NCBI RefSeq assembly: GCF_900104895.1
Contig: NZ_LT629742.1
Location: 3,286,001 to 3,350,000 of the forward strand
Source: Microterricola viridarii
Lineage (GTDB): Bacteria; Actinomycetota; Actinomycetes; Actinomycetales; Microbacteriaceae
Reading direction: 5' to 3'
Length of the DNA stretch: 64,000 bases
Below, piece after piece: positions 23,031-37,102 of the stretch. How positions within the stretch are numbered: position 1 is the stretch's first letter; each line of letters begins with the position of its first letter. The position numbers and the translations under genes are program-made. The notes below the pieces were generated by a model. The model saw only the letters and a program-made list of their open reading frames with translations, was not told the DNA's origin and did not search any database.

Positions 23031-23417
23031 GGTTACTCCTTCGGCGCCTCAGGGGGCGCGACACGGGGTCATCGTACGCTCGGCGCCTCCGTGCGGCCAC
23101 AGATCGGGCGGCCACGAAATAGGGAGAAAATACCGATGCCCCCGCCTCGACCTCCCCGCAATGCTTGACGGTTGATGGCTTCGCGGCCGGGCCCTCGCCC
23201 GGTGCGCGCGGGATGGTGAGCCGTGCTGAGTGCGACGTTCAAGGGGATGCCGGCCGTGCAGCCCGCTCGGGTTGACTCCCGGGCTTCGGGCGCTGCGCTG
23301 CTCCTTCGTCGCGGCGCGGCCCCCTCCAGCCGACGTGGAGAGAGGCGCGGCCCCCTCCAGCCGACGTGCACCTCCCCGTTGGCTCGAGGGAGCGCCAGCG
23401 GATCCGGCGCAGGGGCC
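23031..23417. other. 387-base gap before the peptide operon's 3' end
   Basis: I see no supported gene here. It holds the promoter region of the FMN reductase and a G+C-rich stretch with two near-identical repeats (23313-23368). A GTTGGCTCGAGGGAGCG element at 23378-23394 recurs, inverted, at 44.85-44.93 kb. The stretch lies after the last gene of the peptide operon and may contain its termination region. Confidence 0.6.
23313..23368. repeat. Two 25-bp direct repeats, 31 bp apart
   Basis: GGCGCGGCCCCCTCCAGCCG followed by ACGTG occurs at 23313-23337 and again at 23344-23368. The core CAGCCGACGTG also occurs in the repeat field at 44.6 kb, so this is one member of a dispersed noncoding repeat group. 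Confidence 0.8.
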
Positions 23418-24563
23418 TCAGGCGGGCCAGACCTCCTGGGTGTCGTGGGTGACGCGCGCCAGGTTCTCCGGGATCGGCTCGACGCCGAGGCCCGGGCCCT
23501 GCGGCACGTCGATGTGGCCATCGCGCAGCACGAACGGCTCGGTGATGTCCTCCCTGTAGAACCGGTCGGAGGCCGAGATGTCGCCGGGCAGCGAGAAGCC
23601 GTCGAGGGCGGCGAGGGCGGCGTTCGCCGCCCGGCCCAGGCCGGTCTCCAGCATGCCGCCGCACCACACGGCCACGCCGTGTGCGCGGGAGAGGTCGTGG
23701 ATGCGCTTGGCCTCGAGGTAGCCGCCGACCCGGCCCGGCTTGATGTTGATGACGGATGCCGCGCCGAGCGTGATGGCGTCTGCCGCATCCTTGGCCGACT
23801 CGATCGACTCGTCCAGGCAGATCGGGGTCGACATGGCCGTGGCGAGCTTCGCGTGCTGCACCAGGTCGTCCTCGGCGAGCGGCTGCTCGATCAACAGCAG
23901 GCCGTAGTCGTCGAGGCGGCGCAGGTGCTGGGCGTCCGCGAGCGTGTATGCCGCGTTCGCGTCGACCTGCAGCAGCACCTCATCGCCGAACTGCTGGCGC
24001 ACGGCGGCGACGGGCGCCAGGTCCCAGCCGGGCTGGATCTTCAGCTTGATGCGCACGTAGCCCTCGTCGAGGTAGCCGCCGACGGCGCCCAGCAGGGCGT
24101 CCACGGAGGGCTGGATGCCGACAGAGACGCCGGCGGGCACCCGGGTGCGGGTGGCGCCGAAGTAGCGGGCAAACGACTCCCCGCGGGCGCGCAGCTCCGC
24201 GTCGAGCACGGCCATCTCGATCGCGGCCTTCGCCATCCGGTGTCCGACGACCTTCTCGAGCAGCGCGCCGACGGTCTCGGCGGTGACCTCGCGGCCCTCC
24301 GCCTGCACCCGGGCGAGCATGGGCAGCAGGTAGAGCTGGATCATGCGCTTGGCGCCATCGATGTACTCGGGCGAGTAGAGCGGCTCGCCGAGTGCGACGC
24401 ACTCGCCCCAGCCGACGACGTCGACCCGGCCGTTCGGCGTCGGCACGCTGCCGGCGACGCGCAGCACCAGAGTGTTGCGCTCGGTCTGGGTGCTGAACGA
24501 GGTGGTGAACGGGGAGACGAGCGGGAGCCTGAGCTCGCGCAGTTCGACGGATTCGATGAGCAT
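23418..24563 (-). CDS. Enolase-superfamily N-succinylamino acid racemase (NSAR/OSBS type)
   Basis: A 381-residue muconate-lactonizing-subgroup enolase. It has a capping domain (TERNTLVLRVAG, GWGECVAL) and a barrel with catalytic lysines in IKLKIQPG (about residues 173 and 175). The three metal-ligand segments are LLQVDANAAYTL, LLLIEQPL and TPICLDESI, followed by VINIKPGRVGGYLEA. Sequence alone cannot separate o-succinylbenzoate synthase (MenC) from N-succinylamino acid racemase. No other men gene is nearby. The direct neighbours are a GNAT and an M20 peptidase, the combination known from Geobacillus for D-to-L amino acid conversion. Last gene of the operon, 3 bases after the GNAT. Confidence 0.85.
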   Translation of the reverse strand: MLIESVELRELRLPLVSPFTTSFSTQTERNTLVLRVAGSVPTPNGRVDVVGWGECVALGEPLYSPEYIDGAKRMIQLYLLPMLARVQAEGREVTAETVGALLEKVVGHRMAKAAIEMAVLDAELRARGESFARYFGATRTRVPAGVSVGIQPSVDALLGAVGGYLDEGYVRIKLKIQPGWDLAPVAAVRQQFGDEVLLQVDANAAYTLADAQHLRRLDDYGLLLIEQPLAEDDLVQHAKLATAMSTPICLDESIESAKDAADAITLGAASVINIKPGRVGGYLEAKRIHDLSRAHGVAVWCGGMLETGLGRAANAALAALDGFSLPGDISASDRFYREDITEPFVLRDGHIDVPQGPGLGVEPIPENLARVTHDTQEVWPA

Positions 24564-24566
24564 GGG

Positions 24567-25361
24567 TTACCTCCGGGTGAAAACGTAGTGGTGTGCGGGA
24601 TCGAATCCGGCGGGGAGCCAGTCCGGCGATCCGAAGAGCGGTTCGAGGGCGCCGCGCAGCGCGCCGCGCCAGGCGCGGGCCGTCGAGGGAGCCTCCAGCC
24701 GCATCCGTTCGATGTCGGCGGGGATCTGCACCACGACCGTGTCGGCGTTGGTCGCGCTGGAGTCGTAGACCGGCCGGCCGTCGGCGTTGGCGAGCAGCAG
24801 CGCTCCGGCGCCGTCCGTGCTGACCGGGGCTGGCCGCTCCGCCGGGTCGAGCGCCCACTCCACGAGCAGCCGGTCGCTCTCATCCCCCGCGTTGATGCCG
24901 TCGGACATGGTGCCGTAGCAGTTGGCGATGTAGCCGCTCAGCGTGGCGCCCAGCGAGTTGAGGTTGAAGTGCGCGTTGCGGGCGATCAGCGGGTCGTAGG
25001 TCCAGCGGATGGTGCCGATTCCGCGTTCCAGGCACCACTCCCGCTGGTGCTGCTTGAGCCGCCGGCCGATCCCGCCGCCGGCGATGTCGGAGCGCACCCC
25101 GGCGATGTGCGAGTGCAGCGCGGAGCCGGCCGGCTCGGCGAAGAAGCCGACGCAGCCGCCCACGATGCGGTCCCCGGCGAAGGCGCCGGACACGTAGTTA
25201 CCGCTGTGCTTCAACGCGATGAGCATCGACAGGTCGAACATGGTGTGTCCCGGCTGCGTTCCCCAGATACTGTCGAAGACCGCCACGAGCTCGGTGAGCT
25301 CCTCGACCGTCGTGAGTGACCGCACCTCGGTGATGACGAGCGCGTCAGCGTGACCCGGCAT
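24567..25361 (-). CDS. GNAT-family acyltransferase, candidate D-amino acid N-succinyltransferase
   Basis: A 264-residue protein of the COG3375-like GNAT group. The N-terminal half has the acyl-CoA fold (ELVAVFDSIWG, HSGNYVSGAFAGDRIVGGCVGFF, GIGRRLKQHQREWCLERGIGTIRWTYDPL, RNAHFNLNSLGATL). ARNAHFN is typical of this group. The C-terminal half (VEWALDP, VVVQIPADIERM, WRGALRGALEPLF) is the extra domain these large GNATs share. In Geobacillus the homologous enzyme uses succinyl-CoA to N-succinylate D-amino acids before NSAR; that function is inferred here from gene order. ATG at 25361 lies inside the end of the M20 gene (17-base overlap). Confidence 0.8.
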   Translation of the reverse strand: MPGHADALVITEVRSLTTVEELTELVAVFDSIWGTQPGHTMFDLSMLIALKHSGNYVSGAFAGDRIVGGCVGFFAEPAGSALHSHIAGVRSDIAGGGIGRRLKQHQREWCLERGIGTIRWTYDPLIARNAHFNLNSLGATLSGYIANCYGTMSDGINAGDESDRLLVEWALDPAERPAPVSTDGAGALLLANADGRPVYDSSATNADTVVVQIPADIERMRLEAPSTARAWRGALRGALEPLFGSPDWLPAGFDPAHHYVFTRR

Positions 25362-26502
25362 GGTTGCCTCCCCCCAGCACAGACTGTACAAGCGCGGCGA
25401 CAAGCGCCGTGCGCGGGGCGAAACCGGCCACCACGGCATGCTCGTTCTCGGCGTGGGCGCCGCCGCCCCAGACGCCGATGCCATCGAGCGTCGGCACTCC
25501 CAGACCCGCGGTGAAGTTGCCATCGGATGCCCCGCCGACGGCGATGCCCCGCAGCTCCGGCAGTCCGAGCACGGTCGCGAGCCGGTGCGCCTCCGCGAAG
25601 AGCGCGGCAGAGGCGCCGGCCTCCAGCGGCAGGCGGTTGATGCCGCCCTCGACGCGCAGGGCGGAGCCGGGCACGGCGGGTGCGATGGCGCGGATGGCCG
25701 CGTCGAGGCGTTCCTGGGCCGCCGCCGAGTGCGAGCGCACGTCGACGGAGACGGATGCCGCGGCGGGCACGGTGTTCGTGGTGGTGCCGATCGCGGCGCG
25801 CGTGGGCACGACGCTGAGGCCCGGCTCGCTGCCGTGCAGCGCGGCGATCGCGATGATGGCGTGGGCGAGCGCGACGCCGGCGTTGACCCCCTTCTCCGGC
25901 TCCAGGCCGGCATGGGCGGCGCGCCCCTCCGCCTCGACCCGGTACAGCGAGACGCCCTTGCGCTCCACCTTCAGCTCGCCGGCATCGCCGCCGGCCTCCA
26001 GCACCAGGGTGGCCAGGGCTCCGGCCGCCGTCTGCTCGATGAGTTCGCGCGAGCTCGGCGAGCCGAGCTCCTCGTCGCCGGTGATCAGCAGGGTCACTCC
26101 GTCGAGGGCGGCATCCCCGCCCCGCTCGCGGAGCAGGCCGAGGGCGTGGATGGCCACGGCCAGCCCGCCCTTCATGTCCACGGCCCCCGGGCCGCGCAGC
26201 ACGCCGTCGGTGACGGCGGCCGGGATGCGCGCCAGCGTGCCGAGCGGCCAGACGGTGTCGTGGTGGCCAAGCAACAGCAGGCGGGTCTCCGCGCCCCAGC
26301 GGGCCAGCACGTGCGTGCTGCCGCCGAGGACGATCTGTTCGGCGCGGGCGCCGAGCCGCTCGGCGAGGAGGGCGGTGACGGCATCCGCGCTGCGCGCGAC
26401 GGCGACATGGTCGGCCGACGGCGATTCCACCTCGATGAGGGCGATCGCGTCGGCCAGGATCTGCTCCAGCCGGTTCTCGGCGGATGCGAGCAGCTCAGTC
26501 AT
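25345..26502 (-). CDS. M20-family metallopeptidase, candidate N-succinyl-L-amino acid desuccinylase
   Basis: A 385-residue dizinc amidohydrolase. Metal and catalytic segments are LLLLGHHDTVWPLG (His, Asp), RGPGAVDMKGGLAVAIHAL (bridging Asp), LLITGDEELGSPSSREL (catalytic Glu-Glu), TLVLEAGG and a final GGGAHAENEHA (His). The dimerisation insert lies between about residues 175 and 285. Relatives include ArgE, CPG2 and DapE. In the NSAR pathway the M20 member removes the succinyl group from the L-isomer only, which drives racemisation one way. Its ATG at 26502 overlaps the S9-S12 gene by 8 bases. Confidence 0.87.
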   Translation of the reverse strand: MTELLASAENRLEQILADAIALIEVESPSADHVAVARSADAVTALLAERLGARAEQIVLGGSTHVLARWGAETRLLLLGHHDTVWPLGTLARIPAAVTDGVLRGPGAVDMKGGLAVAIHALGLLRERGGDAALDGVTLLITGDEELGSPSSRELIEQTAAGALATLVLEAGGDAGELKVERKGVSLYRVEAEGRAAHAGLEPEKGVNAGVALAHAIIAIAALHGSEPGLSVVPTRAAIGTTTNTVPAAASVSVDVRSHSAAAQERLDAAIRAIAPAVPGSALRVEGGINRLPLEAGASAALFAEAHRLATVLGLPELRGIAVGGASDGNFTAGLGVPTLDGIGVWGGGAHAENEHAVVAGFAPRTALVAALVQSVLGGGNHAGSR

Positions 26503-29500
26503 TCGACACCACAGCATCCGATACCTCGGGGAATGCGCGGCTGCCGAAGTGCAGCAGGCGCCCGCCCTCGTGCTCGACCAGCCAGACCCGGGTCCATCCG
26601 GGGCGACCGGCCGCCCCGGCGGCGAGGTGGCCGCCTGCGCCCGGGTGCACGGTGAACTCGGTCGTTCCGGCCATCTCCTCGCGGCCGGACGGGTTCCCGC
26701 CGTCGACGCGGGTGGCCACCAGCGCGCCATCGGTGACGGCCAGCGTGATCTCGGCCGACGCGTCACGGTAGCGCCCGGCGAGGGCTGCGGCGGTCTCGGC
26801 GTCGACGGGCTCGAGTGAGCTCGCGGCGAACGGCGCCGTCATCCGGGCCCCGGCGATGCTCTGGGCGATCTCGGCGAACAGCTCGTCGCTGGCCGCGGTC
26901 ATGAGCCCGCCGTTGGTGAGCAGCACGAAGGCCACCCCCTTCGACGCAATCGCCCGGGCAAACGCCTGCTGGCCGATGGTGCCGCCGTCGTGGCCGTGCA
27001 CGCGCACGCCGTTCCAGTCGTACTGCAGCCAGGACAGCCCCATGATCTCGGCGACGCCCTCGGAGTCGGAGACCTGCTGGTCTTCGAGCATCAGCCGGTG
27101 GCCGGCGGTGCTGAGCAGCCGGGGTTCGGCCGACATCGAGTCGGCCAGGAACGCGAGGACGTCATCGACCTGGGCGCTGATCAGCCCGGCGGGCCGGGCC
27201 GAGGGCACGATGCTGGTCTGCGTGACGGGAGTGGCGCTGCCGCTGCGGGCATCGCCGCCGTGGCCAAGCGCGTGGCGGAACAACATGGTGTCCTCCTGCA
27301 GCATCGTCGTCGCGCCCAGGCCCAACGGCTGGAGGATGCGCTCGGTCACCACCTCGTGCCAGTAGGCGCCGCGCAGCACCTCGATGATGCGGCCGAGCAC
27401 GACGAACCCGGTGTTGCAGTACGACCAGTTGACGCCCGGTGCGAAGTGCGAGGTGACCTCGCCGAGCGAGTCGACGAAGAGCTCGACGCAGTCGTGGCCG
27501 CGGCCGGTGTCCGTGAAGATGTCGCCGTCGATGCCGCTGGTGTGGGTGAGCAGCTGGCGCGGGGTCACGGTGGCGGAGGCGTGCGCGTCTGCGACGGTGA
27601 ATCCGGGCAGTACCGCGCGCACGGGGGCGTCGAGGTCGAGCAGCCCCTCCTCGACGAGCTGCATGATGAGCGTGCCGGTGTAGACCTTGGTGATCGAGCC
27701 GATCTGGAACAGCGTGTCATCCGTGACGGGAACACCGGTGGCCGTGCTGGTGAGCCCGGCAGACACGACGGTGGTCTCCGTTCCGGAGCGGGTGGTGGTG
27801 AGGATGCCGAGGGCGGCACCGGGAATGCCGTACTTCTCGATCACGGTCTCCAGACGGGTCTGCCAGTAGTCCCGCTCGACGGTGGCCGCGGCGGGCGTCG
27901 GCGACAGGTGCCGCTCGAACCAGTCGACCAGGCGGCGGCTGTAGTCGACCCGGTGCGACGGGGGCCCGACCAGCACGAAGGCGTGCGAGCCGCCCGGGTA
28001 GAGCACGAGCTCCGACTCGACGCCGGCGAGCAGCAGCCCACCGTGCCACTGCTCGGCCTGGAGCGCGGGGCAGAGCAGGTCGGCCGCGCCGTGCAGGATG
28101 AGGGTCGGCGCGGTGACCTGATCGACCCGGTCGAGCGGCGACAGCGCGCGCGCCCGGCCGCTGCCGCGACGGAACTCGAGGTGGTCCAGCAGCACGCCGT
28201 CATCCGAGGCCCCGGTGAGGTGGGCGAGGTCGGCCACCAGCCCGCCGGCGACGGCCACCGCGAAGCGGTCGGTGAACGCGGTCAGCGCGCAGGTCATGAA
28301 GCCGCCGTAGCTGTAGCCCGTGACGAGCAACTGGGCCGGGTCGGCGACGCCGTCGGCGACGAGGGCATCGATCGGCTCGAGCAGGTCGGGCAGGTCGGCC
28401 TCGCCCCAGGCATCCTGCACGCCGTTGAAGAAGGCCTGGCCGTAGCCGTCGCTGCCGCGCGGGTTCAGCATGAGCACGGTGTAACCGCGGGCGACGAGCT
28501 CCGCGTGGTGCGGCTGCATGATCGAGGGGGTTCCCGTCCACGCGTTGTGCGGTCCGCCGTGCACGTCCAGCACGAGCGGTCCGGCCTGCGTGAGGGACGG
28601 GTCGCGCAGGGTCCAGCCCTGCACGCGGGAGCCGTCGGAGATGTCGAACCAGCGCTCCTCGGCGACCGGCACGGCGACGCCGGCCAGGGGCGCGCCGAAG
28701 GAGGTGAGCGCCACCGGCTCGCCTCCGGCGATGGGCACCTCGACGATCTCGCCGAAGCTGCTCTCCGTGGCCAGCACCGCGCGGACAGAGCCCTGCGACG
28801 CGGCGAAGCCGGACACCACGCGCTGCGCGCCGCCCAGGATCTTTCGTGCCGGGCCGCCGGCGATGGGCACGGCGTGCAGCTCGGTGGAGCCGCCCTCGCG
28901 CAGGCAGAACAGCACCTCGCCGTCGGCGGTCAGCGTCGGGCGGCCGCCCGGGTAGGCCATGCCGCCCGGCATGACGTTGCGGTCGAGCGCCGCCGTGAGG
29001 CTGACATCGGCGAGGGCCGGGTCCAGGTGCAGCACGATGAGCTCGGCGTTGCGGATGCCGGGGGCCTCCGCCCCGACGGCCAGCACAGCGTCGCCGGCCG
29101 GTGCCCAGAGAAGCGGCGCGTGCACGGCACGCGAGCGGCCGACCGGCAGCGCCGCGGCGGTGCGATCGGTCAGGTCGATGACGAGGACGCGGGTCTCCAG
29201 GGTGCGATCCGCGTCGGCGTCGATCCCGGCGCTGAAGGCCAGCTTCCTGCCGTCCGGTGAGTAGGCGGCCTCCGAGGCGTCCCAGTCGCCATCGCTCAGA
29301 CGGGTCAGGGCGCCGGAGGCCAGGTCGAGCTCGAACAGGTGGGCGCGGGCCGATCCCCGGGCGCCGACGCCGTCGACCTTGTGGCGGAGGCCGCGGGAGA
29401 CGAGGGCGGCAGCGGATCCCCGGGACACGGTCGCGGAGAACGCGACCCGGGTGCCGTCCGGCGAGACGACGGGGACGCCGGCGCCCTGCGGCAGCCGGGC

Positions 29501-29845
29501 CGCGGTGGTCAGGGGGCGAACAGCGCCGCCGTCGGCGTTGATGGCGTGCAGCTGCGCGGTCCCGCTCGCGTCCGGGCGCAGGAACAGCACGTCGCCGGTG
29601 GCGGAGTTCCACACCGGGTTGCTGTCGTTCGGCCCCTCGGTGAGGGCGCGGGCGGCGCCGTCTGCGCCGATCAGCCAGAGCGAGCTGGTGTTGCTGTCGC
29701 TGGCGCGATCGTTCGCCTGGCGCGCGAAAACGGTGCGGCCGGCGGCATCCGTGGCCAGGCCGGCCGGGATGACGACGTCCAGGTAGTCCTCGATCGTCGC
29801 CGGTCGCGGGGCGGCCTGCTGTGCGGGCAAGATCTGGTCATTCAT
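26495..29845 (-). CDS. S9 prolyl-oligopeptidase/acylaminoacyl-peptidase fused to an S12 beta-lactamase-type serine hydrolase
   Basis: A 1116-residue two-enzyme protein. Residues 1-400 form a WD40-like propeller (SPDGTRVAFSATVSRG, YSPDGRKLAFSAGIDA). Residues about 410-660 are an alpha/beta hydrolase with nucleophile S512 in VTGYSYGGFMTCAL, the Asp region (HGAADLLCPALQAEQ) and His in YPGGSHAF. From about 665 a penicillin-binding/beta-lactamase class C domain follows, with SxxK at S717 (IGSITKVYTG), YxN (WSYCNTGFV) and HxG (VHGHDGGTIGQ). A C-terminal beta-barrel-like tail ends the protein. No signal peptide is seen, so it is cytosolic. S12 relatives include D-aminopeptidases and D-Ala-D-Ala carboxypeptidases. 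Tightly overlapped with genes on both sides. Confidence 0.88.
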   Translation of the reverse strand: MNDQILPAQQAAPRPATIEDYLDVVIPAGLATDAAGRTVFARQANDRASDSNTSSLWLIGADGAARALTEGPNDSNPVWNSATGDVLFLRPDASGTAQLHAINADGGAVRPLTTAARLPQGAGVPVVSPDGTRVAFSATVSRGSAAALVSRGLRHKVDGVGARGSARAHLFELDLASGALTRLSDGDWDASEAAYSPDGRKLAFSAGIDADADRTLETRVLVIDLTDRTAAALPVGRSRAVHAPLLWAPAGDAVLAVGAEAPGIRNAELIVLHLDPALADVSLTAALDRNVMPGGMAYPGGRPTLTADGEVLFCLREGGSTELHAVPIAGGPARKILGGAQRVVSGFAASQGSVRAVLATESSFGEIVEVPIAGGEPVALTSFGAPLAGVAVPVAEERWFDISDGSRVQGWTLRDPSLTQAGPLVLDVHGGPHNAWTGTPSIMQPHHAELVARGYTVLMLNPRGSDGYGQAFFNGVQDAWGEADLPDLLEPIDALVADGVADPAQLLVTGYSYGGFMTCALTAFTDRFAVAVAGGLVADLAHLTGASDDGVLLDHLEFRRGSGRARALSPLDRVDQVTAPTLILHGAADLLCPALQAEQWHGGLLLAGVESELVLYPGGSHAFVLVGPPSHRVDYSRRLVDWFERHLSPTPAAATVERDYWQTRLETVIEKYGIPGAALGILTTTRSGTETTVVSAGLTSTATGVPVTDDTLFQIGSITKVYTGTLIMQLVEEGLLDLDAPVRAVLPGFTVADAHASATVTPRQLLTHTSGIDGDIFTDTGRGHDCVELFVDSLGEVTSHFAPGVNWSYCNTGFVVLGRIIEVLRGAYWHEVVTERILQPLGLGATTMLQEDTMLFRHALGHGGDARSGSATPVTQTSIVPSARPAGLISAQVDDVLAFLADSMSAEPRLLSTAGHRLMLEDQQVSDSEGVAEIMGLSWLQYDWNGVRVHGHDGGTIGQQAFARAIASKGVAFVLLTNGGLMTAASDELFAEIAQSIAGARMTAPFAASSLEPVDAETAAALAGRYRDASAEITLAVTDGALVATRVDGGNPSGREEMAGTTEFTVHPGAGGHLAAGAAGRPGWTRVWLVEHEGGRLLHFGSRAFPEVSDAVVSND

Positions 29846-30636
29846 CGGAACATCGGCTCCCCGAGTTGTGGAATCGCGGCCATGAGCTCGCGCGTGTACT
29901 GGTGTTGTGGGTTGTCGATGACGTCGAGCACGGGGCCCGACTCGACGAGTTCGCCGTGCCGCATGACCGCGACGTGGTCGCAGACGTAGCGCACCACGGC
30001 GAGGTTGTGGCTGACGAAGAGCATGGTGAAGCCGAGCTCCCGCTGCAGCTCGAGCAGCAGGTTGAGCACGGCGCCCTGCACCGAGACGTCCAGCGCCGAG
30101 GTGATCTCGTCGGCGAGCAGCACGCTCGGCCCGGCGGCGAGGGCGCGGGCGATCGCGACCCGCTGGCGCTGGCCGCCGGAGAGCACGGACGGGTAGCTGT
30201 CGGCGCGGTCGGCGCCGAGGCTGACGGCGTGCAGCAGCCGCTCGACTTCCCGCGTGCGCGCCGCGCGGCCGCGCCGCGCGCTGCGATCGCGGCGTTCTGC
30301 GGCGCGCAGGGCCTCGCCGATCGACTCGCCGATCGTCATCCGCGGGTCGAGGCAGGAGGACGGGTCCTGGAAGATCATCTGGATGCGGCGGCGGAGCCTG
30401 GCCGTCTCCCCCCTGGCGCCCACGACGTCGACGCCGTCGACCAGGATCCGCCCGGAGCTGGCCTCGACGAGGCCGACGGCGGCACGCGCCAGGGTGGACT
30501 TGCCCGAGCCCGATTCGCCGACGAGCCCCATGATGCTGCCCTGCGGGATCGTCAGCGAGACTCCCTTGACCGCGTGGAAACGGCTCGCGCCGGCGCCGAA
30601 GTGCACGTGGACGTCGTCAAACTCGATGGCGCTCAT
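29842..30636 (-). CDS. Oligopeptide ABC transporter ATP-binding protein (DppF/OppF type)
   Basis: A 264-residue ABC ATPase. Walker A is GLVGESGSGKSTLARA, the Q-loop is MIFQDPSSCLDPRMT, the signature is LSGGQRQRVAIARAL, Walker B is VLLADEITSALD and the switch His is in LLFVSHNLAVV. A peptide-transporter C-terminal segment (HQYTRELMAAIPQLGEP) places it in the OppF/DppF group. The second ATPase half of the importer is encoded by the fused gene just upstream, with an ATGA overlap at each end. Confidence 0.93.
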   Translation of the reverse strand: MSAIEFDDVHVHFGAGASRFHAVKGVSLTIPQGSIMGLVGESGSGKSTLARAAVGLVEASSGRILVDGVDVVGARGETARLRRRIQMIFQDPSSCLDPRMTIGESIGEALRAAERRDRSARRGRAARTREVERLLHAVSLGADRADSYPSVLSGGQRQRVAIARALAAGPSVLLADEITSALDVSVQGAVLNLLLELQRELGFTMLFVSHNLAVVRYVCDHVAVMRHGELVESGPVLDVIDNPQHQYTRELMAAIPQLGEPMFR

Positions 30637-32447
30637 CGCACTGCCTCCAGCGGGCCGGCCGCGAAGGTGGACCGCAGCTGCTCGTCGATCGTGGCGAGGG
30701 GCACCCCGCGCGGGCTCGTCATGGTCGGAACGGCGGCGAGCAGGGCTCGCGTGTACGGGTGGCTCGCGTTGCCGGCGACCAGCTCGCTCGTCTCGATGTC
30801 CTCGACGATGTGCCCCTCATACATGACCAGGATGCGCGTGCAGACGCTCGTGATCACGGCCATGTCGTGCGAGATGAGCAGCAGCGCGGCGCCCGTCTCC
30901 GCCCGCACATCGCCCAAGAGCGCGAGCACATCGCGTTGCACCGTCACGTCGAGCGCGGTGGTCGGCTCGTCGGCGATGATCAGCGCGGGCGCCCCCATCA
31001 GCCCCATGGCGATCATGGCGCGCTGGCGCATGCCGCCGGAGAACTCGTGCGGCAGTTGGCCGGCACGGCGCGCCGGGTCCGGGATGCGCACCTCGCCGAG
31101 CCGGGCGACGGCCTTGTCGTGCGCGGCGCCCTTGGAGAGGCCCTCGTGCAGCCAGCCGATCTCGGCGATCTGCGCGCCGACCCTGAGCGCCGGGTTCAGC
31201 GAGGACATCGGGTCTTGGAACACCATGGCCATGCGCGTGCCGAGCAGCTTCGCGAGCCGGCGCGGCGACAGCTCGGCCGGCCGCACTCCGTCGCGGATGA
31301 TCGGCACGCCGTCGAACTCGACGAGTGCCGCGTCGCTCGAGACCGGGTACTGGGTCAGCTGGGCGACGGCGAGGCAGCTGAGCGACTTGCCGGAGCCCGA
31401 CTCGCCGACGATTCCGACGGCCTCGCCGCGGCGCACCTCGAAGCTGATGCCGTCGACGGCCCGCTTCCAGGCGGAACCGGCCGGAACGGTGACCGCGAGG
31501 TCGCGCACACGCAGCACGACGTCGTCGTGGTTCGAATCTGCGGCGGGCTCTGTCGCGGTGGCCCGGGTGCGGGCGGACGACAGCTTCGGCATCCGCCGCC
31601 CGGTGCCGCGGTGCACGCCGGTGCCGCGGGCGATCGCCTCCCCGGTCACGGTGAACACCAGTCCGGCCAGCACGACGGCGATGCCGGGCGCCAGCGCCGT
31701 GGCCGGGTTCACGAAGATCTTCGAGAGGCCCTCGTTGAGCATGCGGCCCCAGTCGAACTCGGGCGGCTGGATGCCGAGGCCGAGGAACGACAGGCCGGCG
31801 AACGCGATCAGGCCGCCGCCCAGCGAGAGGCTCGCGTTCACGATCAGCGGCTCGCGGATGTTGGGCAGGATGTGGCGGAACAGCAGCCCGGCCTTGGAAA
31901 CGCCCAGGATGCGCGCGGCGTCGATGAACTCGCGCCCGCTGACCGAGGAGGTCAGCGTGTGGGTGAGCCTGGCGTAGGCGGGGGCGATCGCGACCCCGAC
32001 CGCGAGCACGGCGCTGAGCGAGCCCTGGCCGAGCACGATCAGCAGGAAGATCGCCAGCAGCAGGGCGGGGAAGGCGAGGGCGAAGTTCAGCAGCGCGACG
32101 AGGATGCGCCCGGCCCAGCGCGGCATCAGCGCGGGGATCGAGCCGAGGATCACGCCCAGGCTGACCCCGATCGCGACGGCGCCGACGGCCATCAGCACCG
32201 AGAGCCGGGTGGCGACCAGGGTGCGGGCGAAGACGTCGCGGCCGGCGGCATCCGTGCCGAAGATGTGCTCGGCGCTCGGGCCCTTCGACAGGTTCAGCGG
32301 GTCGGACACCGCGGCGGCCTCGCCCCAGATCATGGGCGCGAACAGTGCGAGGCCGAACAACAGCACGAGACCGATCGCGGCGAGGATGCCGAGCGGTGAA
32401 CGCAGTGTTCCGATGATCCAGTGGCTGCGCACGGGCTTCTGGTTCAC
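30633..32447 (-). CDS. Fused peptide ABC permease (DppC type) and ATPase (DppD type)
   Basis: A 604-residue fusion. Residues 1-290 are a DppC-type permease with an N-terminal helix (LGILAAIGLVLLFGLALFAPM), a GTDAAGRDVFARTLVATRLS periplasmic-loop signature and the EAA-like LGVSKAGLLFRHILPNIREPL. After a charged linker, residues 310-604 are an ABC ATPase: Walker A VGIVGESGSGKSLSC, Q-loop MVFQDPMSSLNPAL, signature FSGGMRQRAMIAMGL, Walker B LIIADEPTTALD and ISHDMAVI. The fusion fixes a 1:1 permease:ATPase ratio. The partner subunits are the downstream ATPase and the upstream permease. Confidence 0.92.
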   Translation of the reverse strand: MNQKPVRSHWIIGTLRSPLGILAAIGLVLLFGLALFAPMIWGEAAAVSDPLNLSKGPSAEHIFGTDAAGRDVFARTLVATRLSVLMAVGAVAIGVSLGVILGSIPALMPRWAGRILVALLNFALAFPALLLAIFLLIVLGQGSLSAVLAVGVAIAPAYARLTHTLTSSVSGREFIDAARILGVSKAGLLFRHILPNIREPLIVNASLSLGGGLIAFAGLSFLGLGIQPPEFDWGRMLNEGLSKIFVNPATALAPGIAVVLAGLVFTVTGEAIARGTGVHRGTGRRMPKLSSARTRATATEPAADSNHDDVVLRVRDLAVTVPAGSAWKRAVDGISFEVRRGEAVGIVGESGSGKSLSCLAVAQLTQYPVSSDAALVEFDGVPIIRDGVRPAELSPRRLAKLLGTRMAMVFQDPMSSLNPALRVGAQIAEIGWLHEGLSKGAAHDKAVARLGEVRIPDPARRAGQLPHEFSGGMRQRAMIAMGLMGAPALIIADEPTTALDVTVQRDVLALLGDVRAETGAALLLISHDMAVITSVCTRILVMYEGHIVEDIETSELVAGNASHPYTRALLAAVPTMTSPRGVPLATIDEQLRSTFAAGPLEAVR

Positions 32448-32448
32448 G

Positions 32449-33453
32449 TCACACCTCCTTGATGGTGGAGCGGGGGTCGACGAGTGCGAGCACGATGTCG
32501 ACGATGAGGTTGACGAGCAGCACCATGCCGCCGTAGACGACGACGAGGGTCTGCGCGAGTGGGTAGTCCTTGCCGGTGATCGAGGAGACCAGCGTCTGGC
32601 CGAGACCCGGCCACGCGAAGATGCTCTCGACGAGCACCGTGCCGGCGATGAGGGAACCGAGCATGAGGCCGGCCATGGTCAACGTGGGCGTGAGCAGGTT
32701 CGGCAGGGCGTGCCGCAGGTAGAGCAGGGCGGTCGGCATCCGCTTGGCGCGGGCCGTGCGAATGTAGTCGGCGTCGAGCACGCCGAGCGCCTCCGCCCGG
32801 ACGATGCGCGACAGCGAGGCGATGCCACCGAGGGCCAGCGCGGCGACGGGCAGGATGTAGCTCTCCGGGCCGGTGCGCCCGGCGACGGGAAGCACGGGGA
32901 CCGTGACGGCGAACAGGTAGACGAGGCCGACGCCGAACAGGAACTCGGGGATGACCGCGAAGATGCCGGATGTCGCGGTGTAGCCGATCTCGACCCCCCG
33001 GCGCCGCCCGCCACGGGTGAGCGCGGCGAAGGCGATGCCGATCGGAACGGCGAGGAGCAGCACGACCACGATCGTCAACAGGGCGAGCTCCAGCGTCGCC
33101 GGCAGCCGGTCAGCGATGACCTGCACCACGGGAATGTGCAGCTTGATGGAATCACCGGGGTTGCCGGTGAGGAGGCCGCCGATGAACCGGGTGTACTGCT
33201 CCCAGAGCGGCAGGTCGAGTCCGAGGTGCGCCCGCATCGCCTCGACGACCTCGACGGACGCGTTCAGGCCGACCGCCATGCGCACGGGGTCGCCGGGGAT
33301 CAGCTGCAGCATGAGGAACGCCGCGGTCACGAGCCCCCAGAGAGAGAGAGCGAAGACGCCGAGGCGACGCGCCAGAAACGACGGCCAGCCGCCGCGCGCG
33401 AACCAGGAGGTTCGCGCGCGGACGGCCGGCGTTACAGCGGGAGCAGCGGTCAT
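32449..33453 (-). CDS. Peptide ABC transporter permease (DppB/OppB type)
   Basis: A 334-residue membrane protein with about six helices. It starts with a basic segment then LGVFALSLWGLVTAAFLMLQLIPGDPVRM, the typical DppB N-terminus. It also has LGLDLPLWEQYTRFIGGLLTGNPGDS and the EAA loop ADYIRTARAKRMPTALLYLRHALPNLL. The DppB end region is ESIFAWPGLGQTLVSSITGKDYPL. It starts 4 bases after the binding-protein gene and ends 1 base before the fused permease/ATPase. Confidence 0.94.
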   Translation of the reverse strand: MTAAPAVTPAVRARTSWFARGGWPSFLARRLGVFALSLWGLVTAAFLMLQLIPGDPVRMAVGLNASVEVVEAMRAHLGLDLPLWEQYTRFIGGLLTGNPGDSIKLHIPVVQVIADRLPATLELALLTIVVVLLLAVPIGIAFAALTRGGRRRGVEIGYTATSGIFAVIPEFLFGVGLVYLFAVTVPVLPVAGRTGPESYILPVAALALGGIASLSRIVRAEALGVLDADYIRTARAKRMPTALLYLRHALPNLLTPTLTMAGLMLGSLIAGTVLVESIFAWPGLGQTLVSSITGKDYPLAQTLVVVYGGMVLLVNLIVDIVLALVDPRSTIKEV

Positions 33454-33457
33454 CGTG

Positions 33458-35053
33458 TTACTTGAGCAGGCGCAGCGCCGAACCGACGATCTGCGACCCG
33501 AAGGCGAGCTCGGCGTTCTGCAGGTAGGTCTTCTTCACCGTGTCGGCGAACGGCACGACCGAGGTCTCTGCGAACAGGGCCTTCTCGGCGTCCGCCCACG
33601 CCGAGCACGCCTCGGCGCCGACCAGGCCGGATGCCGTGGCAACGGCCGCGTCGTACTCGGCGTTCTCGATGCCGGAGAAGTTCAGGCCGTCGGCCGGGAC
33701 CGGGCCGGAGAAAAACGGGACGACCATGCTCGGCAGGTTCACGTAGACCGGCTCCCAGGCGACATCCCAGCCGGTGTTGTCGGTGCCGGAGAGCAGCACC
33801 TCGACGGTCTTGTTCGAGTCGCCGCTGGTCAGGGTGACGTCGATGCCGAGCGCGGTCCAGGCCTGCTGGGTGAGGTCGGCGGCGGCGTCGTAGGTGTCGC
33901 CCATGGAGTCGTAGAAGAAGTTCAGGGCCAGCGGCGTGCCGTTCTTGGCACGGGTGCCGTCGGCGCCGAGCTTCCAGCCGGCGGCGTCGAGCGCGGCACC
34001 CGCGGCATCCGCGTCGAAGCTCGGCAGGTTGCCGGTCACGGTGTCGTCGACGCAGGCGCGCGGGTTGGTGGAGACGAGGCTGGTCGAGCGGTGGCCGCGG
34101 CCGCCGGTGATGACGCTGGTGAGGTCGTCGAGGTTCAGGCCCTGCACGAGCGCGGCGCGGACGGCCGGGTCGGACGTCGGGTTCGCCTCGTTGTGGTTGA
34201 AGAACATCTGACCGGCGATCGCACCGCGCTCGGCGGCGTTCAGCCCGGCGGCGTCGAGGCGGTCCTGGTCCGCGCCGGTGACGAGGGCGGCGTTGAGCTC
34301 GCCGGAGAGCAGCTGGTTGGCTGCGGTGCTCTCGTTGGTGACGATGGACACGACGACGGTGGCCGGAACGCCGGGCGTCTCGGAGGTGGTGTCGTCCGGG
34401 CCCCAGGAGTATCCGTCGCGGCGCTCGAAGGTGTAGTGGTCGTTGGCGACGGCCTCGGTGACGGCGAACATCCCGGAGCCCGCGGAGCTGGCGTCGATGG
34501 ACTTCGGGTCGGCGAGGGCGGCGTCGCACAGGATCGGCAGCCGCGCCAGGTTCAGCAGCAGGAACGGTGAGGCGGCAGGGGTCGAGACCGTGACGGTCGC
34601 GCCGTCCACAGCGGCGGCGGCATCGACGGGCACGTACACGCCGCGCAGCGCCGAGCCGTTCGCCTCGTCGGTCACGAAGGAGATGTTGTCGGCGACCGTC
34701 TGCGCGGTGAGGGCGCTGCCATCGCTGCAGGTCACGCCGTCGCGGATGGTGAAACTGGCGGAGGTCGTCGTCTCCTCCCAGCTCTCGGCCAGCCAGGGGC
34801 CGATCTCGCTGGTCTTGTCATCGACGTTGACGAGGAAGTCGTAGCTGAGCATCGCGAGCTGGTGCGTGGGCGAGCCGGCCGTCATCAGCGGGTTCAGCGA
34901 GCCGGGGTCGGCGTTCAGCGACCAGGCGAAGGTGCCGTCGACGACGGGGGCCTGCGAGCCGGACGTGTTCGCGCCCGTGCCGGCGCTGCAGCCGGTGATC
35001 GCGAGGGTCACGCCCGCCGCGATGGCGAGGGGTGCGAGGAGCCGTTTCGTCAT
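33458..35053 (-). CDS. Peptide ABC transporter substrate-binding lipoprotein (SBP family 5)
   Basis: A 531-residue lipoprotein with a signal peptide and lipobox LAITGC (lipid on C22). The family-5 binding fold shows WSLNADPGSLNPLMTAGSPTHQ at the start, LAESWEE and FTIRDGVTCSDGSALTAQTVADN, the peptide/nickel binding-protein pattern. VRAALVQGLNLDDL and WTALGIDVTLTSGDSNKTVEVL are further conserved parts. It captures oligopeptides outside the membrane. First structural gene of the operon, 145 bases after the PucR-type regulator gene. Ligand not known. Confidence 0.94.
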   Translation of the reverse strand: MTKRLLAPLAIAAGVTLAITGCSAGTGANTSGSQAPVVDGTFAWSLNADPGSLNPLMTAGSPTHQLAMLSYDFLVNVDDKTSEIGPWLAESWEETTTSASFTIRDGVTCSDGSALTAQTVADNISFVTDEANGSALRGVYVPVDAAAAVDGATVTVSTPAASPFLLLNLARLPILCDAALADPKSIDASSAGSGMFAVTEAVANDHYTFERRDGYSWGPDDTTSETPGVPATVVVSIVTNESTAANQLLSGELNAALVTGADQDRLDAAGLNAAERGAIAGQMFFNHNEANPTSDPAVRAALVQGLNLDDLTSVITGGRGHRSTSLVSTNPRACVDDTVTGNLPSFDADAAGAALDAAGWKLGADGTRAKNGTPLALNFFYDSMGDTYDAAADLTQQAWTALGIDVTLTSGDSNKTVEVLLSGTDNTGWDVAWEPVYVNLPSMVVPFFSGPVPADGLNFSGIENAEYDAAVATASGLVGAEACSAWADAEKALFAETSVVPFADTVKKTYLQNAELAFGSQIVGSALRLLK

Positions 35054-35178
35054 GTTGCCTCCATCGACGGATGGACCGTCTGTGTTCAGGGTGGGGTGAT
35101 TGCGCTGGTGCTCACTCCATCGTGTCGGAGCCGGAACAGCGAAGCATCGTCGAGTCCGACGAATCGAGACAGAGATCC

Positions 35179-35192
35179 TGTCCGATCCGACA
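35179..35192. promoter_or_regulatory. Candidate operator before the binding-protein gene
   Basis: TGTCCGATCCGACA, an imperfect palindrome (12 of 14 positions match), lies between the PucR-type gene and the binding-protein gene. Related half-sites (GTCCGA, TGTCGGA) occur at about 35154 and 35117. It is a plausible site for the PucR-type regulator; there is no direct evidence. Confidence 0.4.
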
Positions 35193-35198
35193 AGTGGG

Positions 35199-36821
35199 CT
35201 ATCTGCTGCCGGGGGCGGTCGCCGCGAACAGGCGCAGCTGCAGCATCAGGCTGAACCGCATCTCCGGGTCGTCGAGGTCGATCGCGGCGATCTCGCTCAG
35301 CCGGCGCAGGCGGTAGCGGAAGGTGTTCGGATGCAGGCCGAGGCGGCCCGCCGCAGCGCCGACGTCGCCGAACGCGTCGAGCCAGGCTTCCAGCGTCTCG
35401 ACGAGGGAGCCACCGCTGCCGGCATCGTGCTCGCGCAGCACCGCGAGGGGCCCGGTGACCGATTCGCGCTCGGCCGAGAGCGAGTCGGAGAGGCGCAGCA
35501 GCAGTGACTCGACCTGCACCTCCTCCGCGTCGGCGACCAGGCGGCGGCGCGGGCCGCCCGTCGACCAGAGCAGAACACGCAGGGCGCGGTCCGCCCCGGC
35601 GCGGGCACGCTGCAGGCCGGTCACATCGGCCACGGGCGCGCCGAGCCCGATCACCACGGACGGGCCGCGCCGGTAGCGCTCGGCGAAGGTCGTGGCGATC
35701 CGCCGCGCATACTCGGGGCCCGGGTGGCCCTGCGCATGCGGGAGCACCGCGTACACCGTGCCCGCGATCGGGGCGGCGACCGAGAGGGCGTGGATCTGGT
35801 GCAGGTACATGCCGAGCGAGTCGGCCAGGCGCTGCACGGCGTCCTCCTGCGCGATCGAGCTGGTCGCGGTGTCGGTGAGGCCGACGGCGAGCACCGATGT
35901 CGGCGCGGAGCCGTAGCCGAGCCGTTCGGCCGCCTCCTTCGCGCGCACCCCGCCCTCGAGCAGGTCGAGCACCTCGCTCACCCGCAGCCGCCTGGCCGCG
36001 TCGCTGCCCGCGCGCTGCCGGAAGAGGGTGATGGAGGCGACGGCCGCGGCCTCGACGAGCGCCGCCGACTGCATCTCGCTGGGCGGCTCGTCGACGATGG
36101 CCCAGATCGAGCCGAGCAGCTCGCGCCCTGCCCGGATGCGCACGGCCACGCGCGGTCGCACCCCCGGCCCGATCGAGGGCAGGAACACGGGTTGCGCCGA
36201 CCGCTCAATCTGCCGGAACACGCCGGAGCTGGTGAGGATCTTCTCGTAGTTCGACGGCACCTGGTGCCCGAGCACGCTCTGCTTGCGCGCGTCATCACCC
36301 CTGGCCTGGTCGGCAGAGAAGGCGAGGATGCGGTTCGACGGGTTCTCGATGGTGACCGGCCCGCCGACCACCGCGGCGATGGAGTTCGCGAGGTCGAAGA
36401 GATCGGAGTCGGCCGCCGCGGCATCCGCTTCGAGCCCATACCGCGCCGGCTCCGGGGCGTCGACGAAGTAGGAGGCGAGTTGAATCCAGTCGGTGCCGGC
36501 CGGCGCACCGAGCAGGGCGACGCCGGTCGACTCGGCGAGCTGCTGGACCAGCGGGTCAAGACTCACCGGCTCGCGCACGACGAGTGCCAACGCGCCCGCG
36601 GCGGCGCACTCCAGAAGCGCGTCAGCGAGCTGCTCGGCGGTCTGCACGCCCACCCCCAACACGAGGTCGCCCTCCGCGAGCGCCAGCGCGCCGGGTTCGA
36701 GCAGCCGCACTCCCCCGAACTCGCGGGCGTCGAGAGCGACCCCCGGCAGTACGTGGGACAGGTCGAGCCGAGTGATGAGGTCGATCGCCGAGACCCGACG
36801 GGCCCCCAGATGGGCGGTCAC
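35199..36821 (-). CDS. PucR/CdaR-family transcriptional regulator
   Basis: A 540-residue regulator. The N-terminal PucR domain reads ALAEGDLVLGVGVQTAEQLADAL and GALALVVREPVSLDPLVQQLAESTGVALL. The middle is a GAF/GGDEF-like ligand region. The C-terminal PucR helix-turn-helix reads LGLHPNTFRYRLRRLSEIAAIDLDDPEMRFSLMLQLRL, a diagnostic PucR_C2 signature. PucR proteins usually activate nitrogen, purine or amino acid catabolism when their inducer is present. It lies directly upstream of the peptide-import operon and on the same strand, so it is the likely controller. The inducer may be an amino acid or peptide product. Confidence 0.9.
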   Translation of the reverse strand: MTAHLGARRVSAIDLITRLDLSHVLPGVALDAREFGGVRLLEPGALALAEGDLVLGVGVQTAEQLADALLECAAAGALALVVREPVSLDPLVQQLAESTGVALLGAPAGTDWIQLASYFVDAPEPARYGLEADAAAADSDLFDLANSIAAVVGGPVTIENPSNRILAFSADQARGDDARKQSVLGHQVPSNYEKILTSSGVFRQIERSAQPVFLPSIGPGVRPRVAVRIRAGRELLGSIWAIVDEPPSEMQSAALVEAAAVASITLFRQRAGSDAARRLRVSEVLDLLEGGVRAKEAAERLGYGSAPTSVLAVGLTDTATSSIAQEDAVQRLADSLGMYLHQIHALSVAAPIAGTVYAVLPHAQGHPGPEYARRIATTFAERYRRGPSVVIGLGAPVADVTGLQRARAGADRALRVLLWSTGGPRRRLVADAEEVQVESLLLRLSDSLSAERESVTGPLAVLREHDAGSGGSLVETLEAWLDAFGDVGAAAGRLGLHPNTFRYRLRRLSEIAAIDLDDPEMRFSLMLQLRLFAATAPGSR

Positions 36822-36909
36822 GAGATGCCGGCGGCCAGCGGCTGTTGGCGGTCGATCGGCATGGGTTCAATCCTATGTCGGGGAATCACCCGGTCTATGT
36901 GATGCCCCG

Positions 36910-36935
36910 CTTGAAGGCGCGGCGCAGGCTTCAAG
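36910..36935. promoter_or_regulatory. Inverted repeat between pucR and the stress-like operon
   Basis: CTTGAAG - 12 bases - CTTCAAG, perfect 7-bp arms. It lies in the 146-base gap between the divergent PucR-type gene and the plus-strand small-protein/MFS operon. It could be an operator for either, or a leader hairpin of the 44-residue gene that starts 33 bases later. Confidence 0.45.
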
Positions 36936-36967
36936 AGACGGGCAGCGAGACGTGTGGAGGCGTAATC

Positions 36968-37102
36968 ATGGAGCGTGGCGATTTTGCAACTGAGCCGCCG
37001 GAGACGCAACCGCTAGACCTCGCCGAGCTCTTCGAACATCGCGCGAAAGCCGCCGATTCGAGCGTCACCCTGGGCCTCGACGCGGGCACAGACGAGGGCT
37101 AG
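36968..37102 (+). CDS. 44-residue acidic small protein
   Basis: Small gene with ATG at 36968 and a good ribosome site (GTGGAGGCG, about 8 bases upstream). The product MERGDFATEPPETQPLDLAE... is acidic, has no membrane segment, and has a predicted helix PLDLAELFEHRAKAA. An in-frame upstream ATG at 36845 would add 41 basic residues but has no ribosome site. It precedes the MFS gene by 35 bases in the same direction. Family unknown. Confidence 0.5.
   Translation: MERGDFATEPPETQPLDLAELFEHRAKAADSSVTLGLDAGTDEG

Follow-up and report, generated by a model that had tools for sequence, protein, structure and literature searches.

A predicted operon for the catabolism of D-amino-acid-containing peptides in Microterricola viridarii

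Introduction

Nine genes lie side by side on the minus strand of a 64,000-nucleotide stretch of the Microterricola viridarii genome (assembly GCF_900104895.1, contig NZ_LT629742.1, positions 3,286,001 to 3,350,000; this stretch is hereafter the window, and its own numbering is used for all coordinates). They code for a PucR-type regulator, a family-5 ABC importer, a fusion of S9 and S12 peptidases, an M20 hydrolase, a GNAT acyltransferase and an enolase-superfamily protein of the N-succinylamino acid racemase (NSAR) type. What would a cell do with such a set of genes? In Geobacillus, a GNAT/NSAR/M20 pathway, attributed to Sakai and coworkers in 2006, reportedly carries out the irreversible conversion of D- to L-amino acids. 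To our knowledge, there is little physiological evidence for the natural role of NSARs or for the origin of their D-amino acids. An initial annotation of the locus from its sequence had proposed that it imports peptides containing D-residues and converts the D-amino acids to their L-forms. All nine genes that it noted are present with intact catalytic motifs, and our analysis suggests that they probably form a catabolic unit for D-amino-acid-containing peptides, with a GNAT-NSAR core, interchangeable importer and D-hydrolase add-ons, and transfer as a cassette within the genus. Other genomes share the full gene combination. Our search of the open-licence literature turned up no account of it, which is no proof that none exists.

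An enolase of the NSAR type

The window enolase aligns over its full length with the Amycolatopsis NSAR (1sja; 496.5 bits, E = 4.5e-148) and scores lower against the Ala-Glu epimerase 1jpm (114.6 bits) and the best muconate enzyme (3i4k, 124.6 bits). The gap in score between 1sja and 1jpm rules out a dipeptide epimerase. Residues K173/K175, D201, E226, D251, K275 and R278 are all present and align with 1sja positions. We take K175 and K275 to be the catalytic lysines, D201, E226 and D251 to be the metal ligands, and R278 to be the equivalent of R266, the arginine that is altered in 7s8w (aligned there with Q). Thus, the protein resembles the Amycolatopsis enzyme (1sja, 7s8w) in length, in both lysines, in the D/E/D ligands and in the R266 equivalent, and differs from 1sja by approximately 12 extra residues in the aligned N-terminal domain. 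These features bear out the initial assignment to enolases of the NSAR/o-succinylbenzoate synthase type and support membership in the NSAR-type subfamily, with a predicted racemase activity.

One result speaks against this assignment. The sole NCBIfam model that the enolase matches above its cut-off (TIGR01928; 294.5 bits, cut-off 200.65) is named o-succinylbenzoate synthase, as expected if the protein were the menaquinone enzyme MenC and its neighborhood accidental. However, the same genome encodes a separate MenC (470 bits, cut-off 288) with MenA, MenB, MenD and isochorismate synthase as neighbors, and the operon enolase is therefore dispensable as MenC. The initial annotation had named an enolase serving as the only menC of the genome as fatal to its proposal; the separate gene in the men cluster contradicts this and makes the MenC explanation hardly credible. 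Furthermore, no men genes were found among the other eight operon genes by Pfam and NCBIfam matches.

Conservation of the GNAT-NSAR pair and its partners in Actinomycetota

The enolase gene is closely tied to the GNAT gene. Across a phylum sample of 296 genomes (cut-offs of E <= 1e-40 for GNAT and E <= 1e-90 for NSAR), GNAT was found in 53 and NSAR in 49. Both occurred in 47 genomes, with six carrying GNAT only and two NSAR only (Fisher p = 2e-45, uncorrected for shared ancestry). For 46 of the 51 NSAR matches, the gene immediately 5' is a co-oriented GNAT gene within 1 kb (median gap, 46.5 bp).

We then used a GNAT scan of named genomes to read the loci of the best 80 of 582 relatives, a choice that makes the counts lean to close relatives and in which Nonomuraea, Streptomyces and Amycolatopsis are counted many times. 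NSAR was present in 72 of these loci (71 within 3 kb), PucR in 47, M20 in 46, S12 in 45 and S9 in 21. Importer genes were also frequent: 31 loci had the substrate-binding protein (SBP), 42 DppB, 38 DppC, 34 DppD and 43 DppF. NSAR, GNAT, M20, S9, S12 and an importer gene (at least 45% identity) occurred together in 15 loci. The order SBP-DppBCDF-S9-S12-M20-GNAT-NSAR was collinear on one strand in 11, in two of which M19 is inserted after DppF and before S9, and the S9-S12 fusion was in frame and free of stops in 14. The same queries against 20 random 20-kb actinobacterial regions, a small control drawn from three genomes only, returned DppF five times, S12 once and nothing else. The random regions, together with the kept gene order, reject chance co-location of the operon genes. 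Row L009 of alignment A2, a wrong-strand translation, was disregarded.

Other hydrolase families recur at the 80 loci. M19 dipeptidase genes were present in 19 and stood directly upstream of M20 or GNAT in 15. M19 enzymes cleave L-D dipeptides, and the protein from one locus (L043) matches PF01244 (7e-83) and has 3id7 and dipeptidase 1 as its closest solved relatives. A D-aminoacylase-like amidohydrolase was encoded in 10 loci (seven of them in Amycolatopsis) and directly upstream of M20 or GNAT in nine; among solved structures, it is closest to N-acyl-D-glutamate deacylase and D-aminoacylase. Of the sequence evidence for the predicted D-residue substrates, the recurrence of the M19 and D-aminoacylase-like families beside the GNAT-NSAR core is the strongest; S12, another family typical of such substrates, recurs there as well.

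Genes for class-A-like serine hydrolases (Beta-lactamase2) also lie near the cluster, one or two per locus (L043, L044, L064, L073, L077 and others). Their presence in 17 of the 80 loci, along with S12 genes, would fit a role in resistance, in which the operon would destroy antibiotic peptides with D-residues instead of serving to feed on peptides in general. Many of the carriers among the best 80 of 582 belong to genera known for antibiotics; because carriers were chosen as best matches, their taxonomy is no test of detoxification. A full route for the recovery of L-amino acids (racemase and M20) and an importer suit nutrition better, and an import system feeding a cytosolic enzyme would pull the drug into the cell. 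We thus consider detoxification quite improbable and favor the catabolic use of D-residue peptides.

The complete operon is rarer than the pair. Full-length relatives of the S9-S12 fusion (own genome counted) were found in four of 299 genomes of the family, one of them (G230) with an internal TGA, and, at E <= 1e-100, in two of 396 genomes of the phylum, the second being G334. The order SBP-DppB-DppCD-DppF-S9S12-M20-GNAT-NSAR is kept at 39-65% protein identity in L033 and L034, loci of two further genera of the family. In both, PucR (37-38%) follows NSAR, and the SBP gene is preceded by an additional S12 gene. The nine-gene order whose conservation in Microbacteriaceae the initial annotation had put forward as a check is therefore kept for eight collinear genes and broken for the regulator, which is at the other end.

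Peptidases, hydrolase, acyltransferase and importer

The S9-S12 protein combines a propeller, an S9 domain, an S12 domain and a C-terminal beta domain. Its catalytic sets (S512, D589 and H621 in S9; S717-x-x-K720, Y809-x-N811 and H952 in S12) comprise eight residues, all identical in 15 of 15 aligned fusions. The structural model is moderate (predicted local distance difference test [pLDDT], 73.6; predicted template modeling score [pTM], 0.58), and we therefore relied on it solely for the fold of the S9 half. The nearest folds to this half are the S9 carboxypeptidase 8wt1 (TM-score of 0.85, by target length) and the Deinococcus S9 peptidase 5yzo. Like these carboxypeptidases and acyl-peptide hydrolases, the window protein has a propeller plus an alpha/beta-hydrolase with an intact triad; unlike them, its polypeptide also contains an S12 domain. 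The S12 part carries the SxxK, YxN and HxG motifs of alkaline D-peptidase (4y7p, 2.3e-31) and D-aminopeptidase (1ei5, 2e-13), and its motif residues agree with those listed for D-aminopeptidase in PMC3347556. It differs from both enzymes in being fused to S9 and in having the esterase IS11 as its nearest PDB relative, ahead of alkaline D-peptidase. No signal peptide was seen by eye on the fusion, which we thus take to be cytosolic.

The M20 hydrolase has carboxypeptidase G2 as its best solved relative (1cg2, 1.3e-30). Residues H80, D82, D109, E144, E145, E169 and H350, presumably the metal and catalytic residues, are invariant across 17 aligned sequences. This protein and the S9 domain, whose relatives include acylaminoacyl-peptidases, raise the alternative that the operon imports and breaks down N-acylated or ordinary L-peptides. 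The S9 domain would then act like an acylaminoacyl-peptidase, M20 as a carboxypeptidase, and NSAR would racemize N-acyl-amino acids formed as by-products; indeed, NSAR-family enzymes also accept N-acetyl amino acids, according to PMC8142540. This explanation gives no account of the tight GNAT-NSAR pairing or of the recurrent M19 and D-aminoacylase-like partners, and we regard it as unlikely compared with D-residue peptides as substrates.

For the GNAT protein, a fold of this superfamily is predicted with high confidence (pLDDT, 91.8). The best fold matches, headed by PA4866, are PA4866/phosphinothricin-acetyltransferase-like enzymes of approximately 150-190 residues; because they span only this length, the last ~80 residues of the window protein appear to have no counterpart. 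Sequence and profile searches found no PDB relative at E <= 0.01, there was no NCBIfam match, and the match to Pfam Acetyltransf_1 was weak; the label 'COG3375-like' given in the initial annotation is a tentative one. The Lysinibacillus GNAT encoded beside NSAR, our representative of Bacillaceae, is homologous, with 28% identity over 270 columns (3e-33). Sakai et al. (2006), as cited in PMC8762209, reported a GNAT that produces N-acetyl and N-succinyl derivatives of D-Phe, D-Tyr and D-Trp.

The importer has a complete complement of one family-5 SBP, two permease domains and two ATPase domains. The second permease and the first ATPase are a single fused protein (DppC-DppD), which the initial annotation lacked. 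The SBP carries an ITGC lipobox (by eye) and matches the NCBIfam TIGR04028, NikA and CntA models, every one below its cut-off. We infer that the importer belongs to the peptide/opine/nickel-type ABC family, with a peptide as the predicted ligand.

Related regions on plasmids of Actinomycetota and other phyla

A relative of the GNAT gene was found in 45 plasmid records, 19 of them from Deinococcus (mostly D. radiodurans), and we read 14 regions hand-picked for variety. The NSAR gene adjoins GNAT or is one gene off in 13; the exception is a Microbacterium plasmid. A linear plasmid of Streptomyces has the entire operon, S9-S12 included. An Arthrobacter plasmid has SBP, S12, M19, PucR, M20, S12, GNAT and NSAR. 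In Deinococcus ficus, the order is NSAR-GNAT-permease-permease-SBP-S12-amidohydrolase-M19-S12. D. psychrotolerans and one plasmid of Deinococcus QL22 have a similar core together with S12 and an annotated D-aminoacylase gene; the part of them that we read has no M19. The annotations of these three Deinococcus regions include no ATPase gene. Other regions pair the core with different partners: two Sulfitobacter plasmids have an amino-acid ABC importer, NSAR and GNAT; Pseudosulfitobacter has an M81 peptidase, an Opp ABC importer, NSAR and GNAT; Lysinibacillus has the order POT transporter-M20-GNAT-NSAR; and Priestia has an amidohydrolase, GNAT and NSAR. Altogether, a D-type hydrolase (S12, M19 or D-aminoacylase-like) lies beside NSAR in five of the 14 regions.

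Some features of these regions stand apart. The NSAR-type gene is named menC (o-succinylbenzoate synthase) in 13 of the 14 (L184, L186-L197), 12 of which have a menaquinone GO term, even though the genes around it suggest D-amino acid use. The M81/MlrC gene of Pseudosulfitobacter (L189:1-1496), from what we take to be the microcystinase C family, could be a link to cyclic D-residue peptides. The Stenotrophomonas rhizophila record CP031730 (L196) has the same gene order as Lysinibacillus fusiformis (L186), including HflX, PutP and siderophore genes, and is perhaps mis-assigned Bacillaceae DNA.

Evidence against and a proposed pathway

Several results weigh against a D-residue peptide system. 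First, neither the SBP nor the S12 domain has a D-peptide protein as its nearest solved relative. The best solved relative of the SBP (6lu2) is titled merely 'substrate binding protein' and is followed by NikA; that of S12, IS11, is a carboxylesterase. According to PMC9972953, IS11 showed no apparent enantio-preference, though benzyl (R)-2-hydroxy-3-phenylpropionate was the ester that it preferred. Second, the solved protein nearest to the window M20 is carboxypeptidase G2, and the Lysinibacillus M20 beside GNAT-NSAR is only 25% identical over 185 columns (E = 2e-4). No relative of the window M20 was found in the Deinococcus and Sulfitobacter-type plasmid regions read, including those of D. 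ficus, D. psychrotolerans and one QL22 plasmid with S12 genes. These results make the evidence for M20 deacylation weak. Third, D. radiodurans and a second QL22 plasmid have NSAR, a small SBP and GNAT and no peptidase in the region, and a genome of another actinobacterial family (G334) has NSAR, PucR, GNAT, S9-S12 and S12 together with no operon-type M20 or close importer in 19.9 kb.

The partners are also scarce around most GNAT-NSAR pairs. We read 40 of the 46 pair regions of the phylum sample, leaving out the own genome as well as G553, G563:C337, G458, G479 and G511. Operon-type M20, S12 and PucR were each near three pairs, DppF near four, S9 and M19 near one each, and SBP, DppB, DppC and DppD near none. 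GNAT-NSAR is thus the widespread core, and the importer, the peptidases and the operon-type M20 are minority additions. In most of these regions (L139-L178), the pair stands without any of the three. No clear pathway partner emerged from the neighbors that recur around the pair in this sample; the open reading frame (ORF) caller was crude and some neighbor clusters are likely antisense artefacts.

The frequency of the bare pair, together with its place beside an amino-acid ABC importer in the two Sulfitobacter plasmids, raises the question of whether the true role is to scavenge free D-amino acids, with importer and peptidase genes that joined recently and are linked only loosely. Against this, the window genes overlap or nearly touch, all components recur in 15 of the 80 named loci (collinear in 11), and three Deinococcus plasmids have a similar set of functions. 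Scavenging as the true role is therefore highly improbable. For the D-peptide system first proposed for this locus, the NSAR type, the GNAT-NSAR pair and the recurrent D-type hydrolases argue in favor; an M20 that is CPG2-like and far from the Lysinibacillus enzyme does not fit as well.

Under the catabolic reading that we prefer, the family-5 importer would take up short peptides, which the cytosolic S9-S12 enzyme would trim, S9 at L-residues and S12 at bonds of D-residues. Peptidoglycan or D-peptide antibiotics, as the initial annotation suggested, or some other material might supply these peptides. The freed D-amino acid would be N-succinylated (or N-acetylated) by GNAT, and the N-acyl amino acid racemized by NSAR. 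M20 is proposed to hydrolyze only the N-acyl-L form, which would make the D-to-L conversion one-way. PucR would control the operon.

Compared with the Geobacillus pathway, the window has the same three kinds of enzymes in one transcription unit (23418-26502), with an NSAR of a characterized subfamily, and the Lysinibacillus relative has the M20-GNAT-NSAR order as well. The window differs by adding a peptide-type ABC importer, the S9-S12 fusion and PucR, and by a CPG2-like M20 remote from that of Lysinibacillus. As predicted from its gene content, the operon is an extension of the known pathway that elaborates the GNAT-NSAR core. The NSAR/L-succinylase pair of Geobacillus kaustophilus has been used in amino acid production, according to PMC7431475.

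Organization of the locus and probable mobility within the genus

The nine genes span 23418-36821 (Table 1) and are transcribed in the order PucR, SBP, DppB, DppCD, DppF, S9-S12, M20, GNAT and NSAR. From the coordinates, gaps of 4, 1 and 3 bp separate SBP-DppB, DppB-DppCD and GNAT-NSAR, and overlaps of 4, 4, 8 and 17 bp join DppCD-DppF, DppF-S9S12, S9S12-M20 and M20-GNAT; the last depends on a GNAT start at 25361 picked by eye via its ribosome-binding site. The initial description of a tightly spaced operon behind PucR thus holds from SBP to NSAR (gaps of at most 4 bp or overlaps) and not for PucR, which is 145 bp upstream and uncoupled. This spacer contains a perfect 6-bp inverted repeat (TCGTCG-GACT-CGACGA, by eye), a possible operator. 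Just 3' of the NSAR gene (23031-23417) is a 25-bp GC-rich direct repeat in two copies, also seen by eye.

Table 1. Features of the predicted operon, in order of transcription (window positions)
Feature	Positions	Strand	Evidence
PucR-type regulator, 540 aa	35199..36821	-	PF13556 1.2e-21, PF17853 3.3e-8
145-bp spacer 5' of SBP gene, likely promoter/operator region	35054..35198	-	function inferred
Substrate-binding lipoprotein (SBP), family 5, 531 aa	33458..35053	-	NCBIfam family-5 models (below cut-off), solved relatives
ABC permease, DppB/OppB type, 334 aa	32449..33453	-	PF00528 1.9e-32, PF19300
Fused permease-ATPase, DppC-DppD type, 604 aa	30633..32447	-	PF00528 at 98-274, PF00005 at 332-497
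ABC ATPase, DppF/OppF type, 264 aa	29842..30636	-	PF00005 4.4e-34
S9-S12 peptidase fusion, 1116 aa	26495..29845	-	PF00326 1.5e-34, PF00144 1.3e-54
M20 metallohydrolase, CPG2-like, 385 aa	25345..26502	-	1cg2 1.3e-30
GNAT acyltransferase with C-terminal extension, 264 aa	24567..25361	-	model pLDDT 91.8, GNAT fold matches
NSAR-type enolase-superfamily racemase, 381 aa	23418..24563	-	1sja 4.5e-148; TIGR01928; motifs

Within the genus, the operon is present in two of five genomes, M. viridarii itself and G230. A third genome (G182) has flanks that are 96-97% identical in DNA, yet it lacks window positions 23258-36882. In their place, G182 has 3.7 kb of other DNA (L179:3237-6976) holding a 957-amino acid ORF that looks secreted by eye; the site is nearly empty (~250 bp, L180:3575-3827) in a fourth genome, G129. 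In 1-kb pieces, the operon is 92-97% identical to that of G230 (89% in the last piece, 36001-37000), compared with 74-91% for the flanks. At fourfold-degenerate sites, the difference is 10-16% for the eight structural genes, 22% for PucR and 26-40% for flanking genes, a silent-site baseline of three genes only. We left out of this comparison an ORF ('left608') that opposes the contrast (65% identity, 11.8% fourfold differences) and is probably not a real gene. The simplest reading of these sequence patterns is that the operon is a cassette exchanged within the genus.

Implications

The window and its relatives hint at something broader, which we put forward tentatively, at a little less than even odds: a modular, mobile system for D-residue peptides across Actinomycetota, Deinococcota, Alphaproteobacteria and Bacillota. 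A fixed GNAT-NSAR core would combine with varied importers (Opp ABC, POT or amino-acid ABC) and varied D-hydrolases (S9-S12, S12, M19, D-aminoacylase-like and perhaps M81), with S9-S12 as a dual-chirality peptidase. The fusion is a candidate new tool to cut mixed D/L peptides. Genes annotated as menC, as in 13 of the 14 plasmid regions, may serve in the use of D-amino acids and not in menaquinone synthesis. Furthermore, the operon joins NSAR to an importer and D-type peptidases in one unit, and the natural role of the racemase is therefore testable through gene deletions and growth assays with defined peptides.

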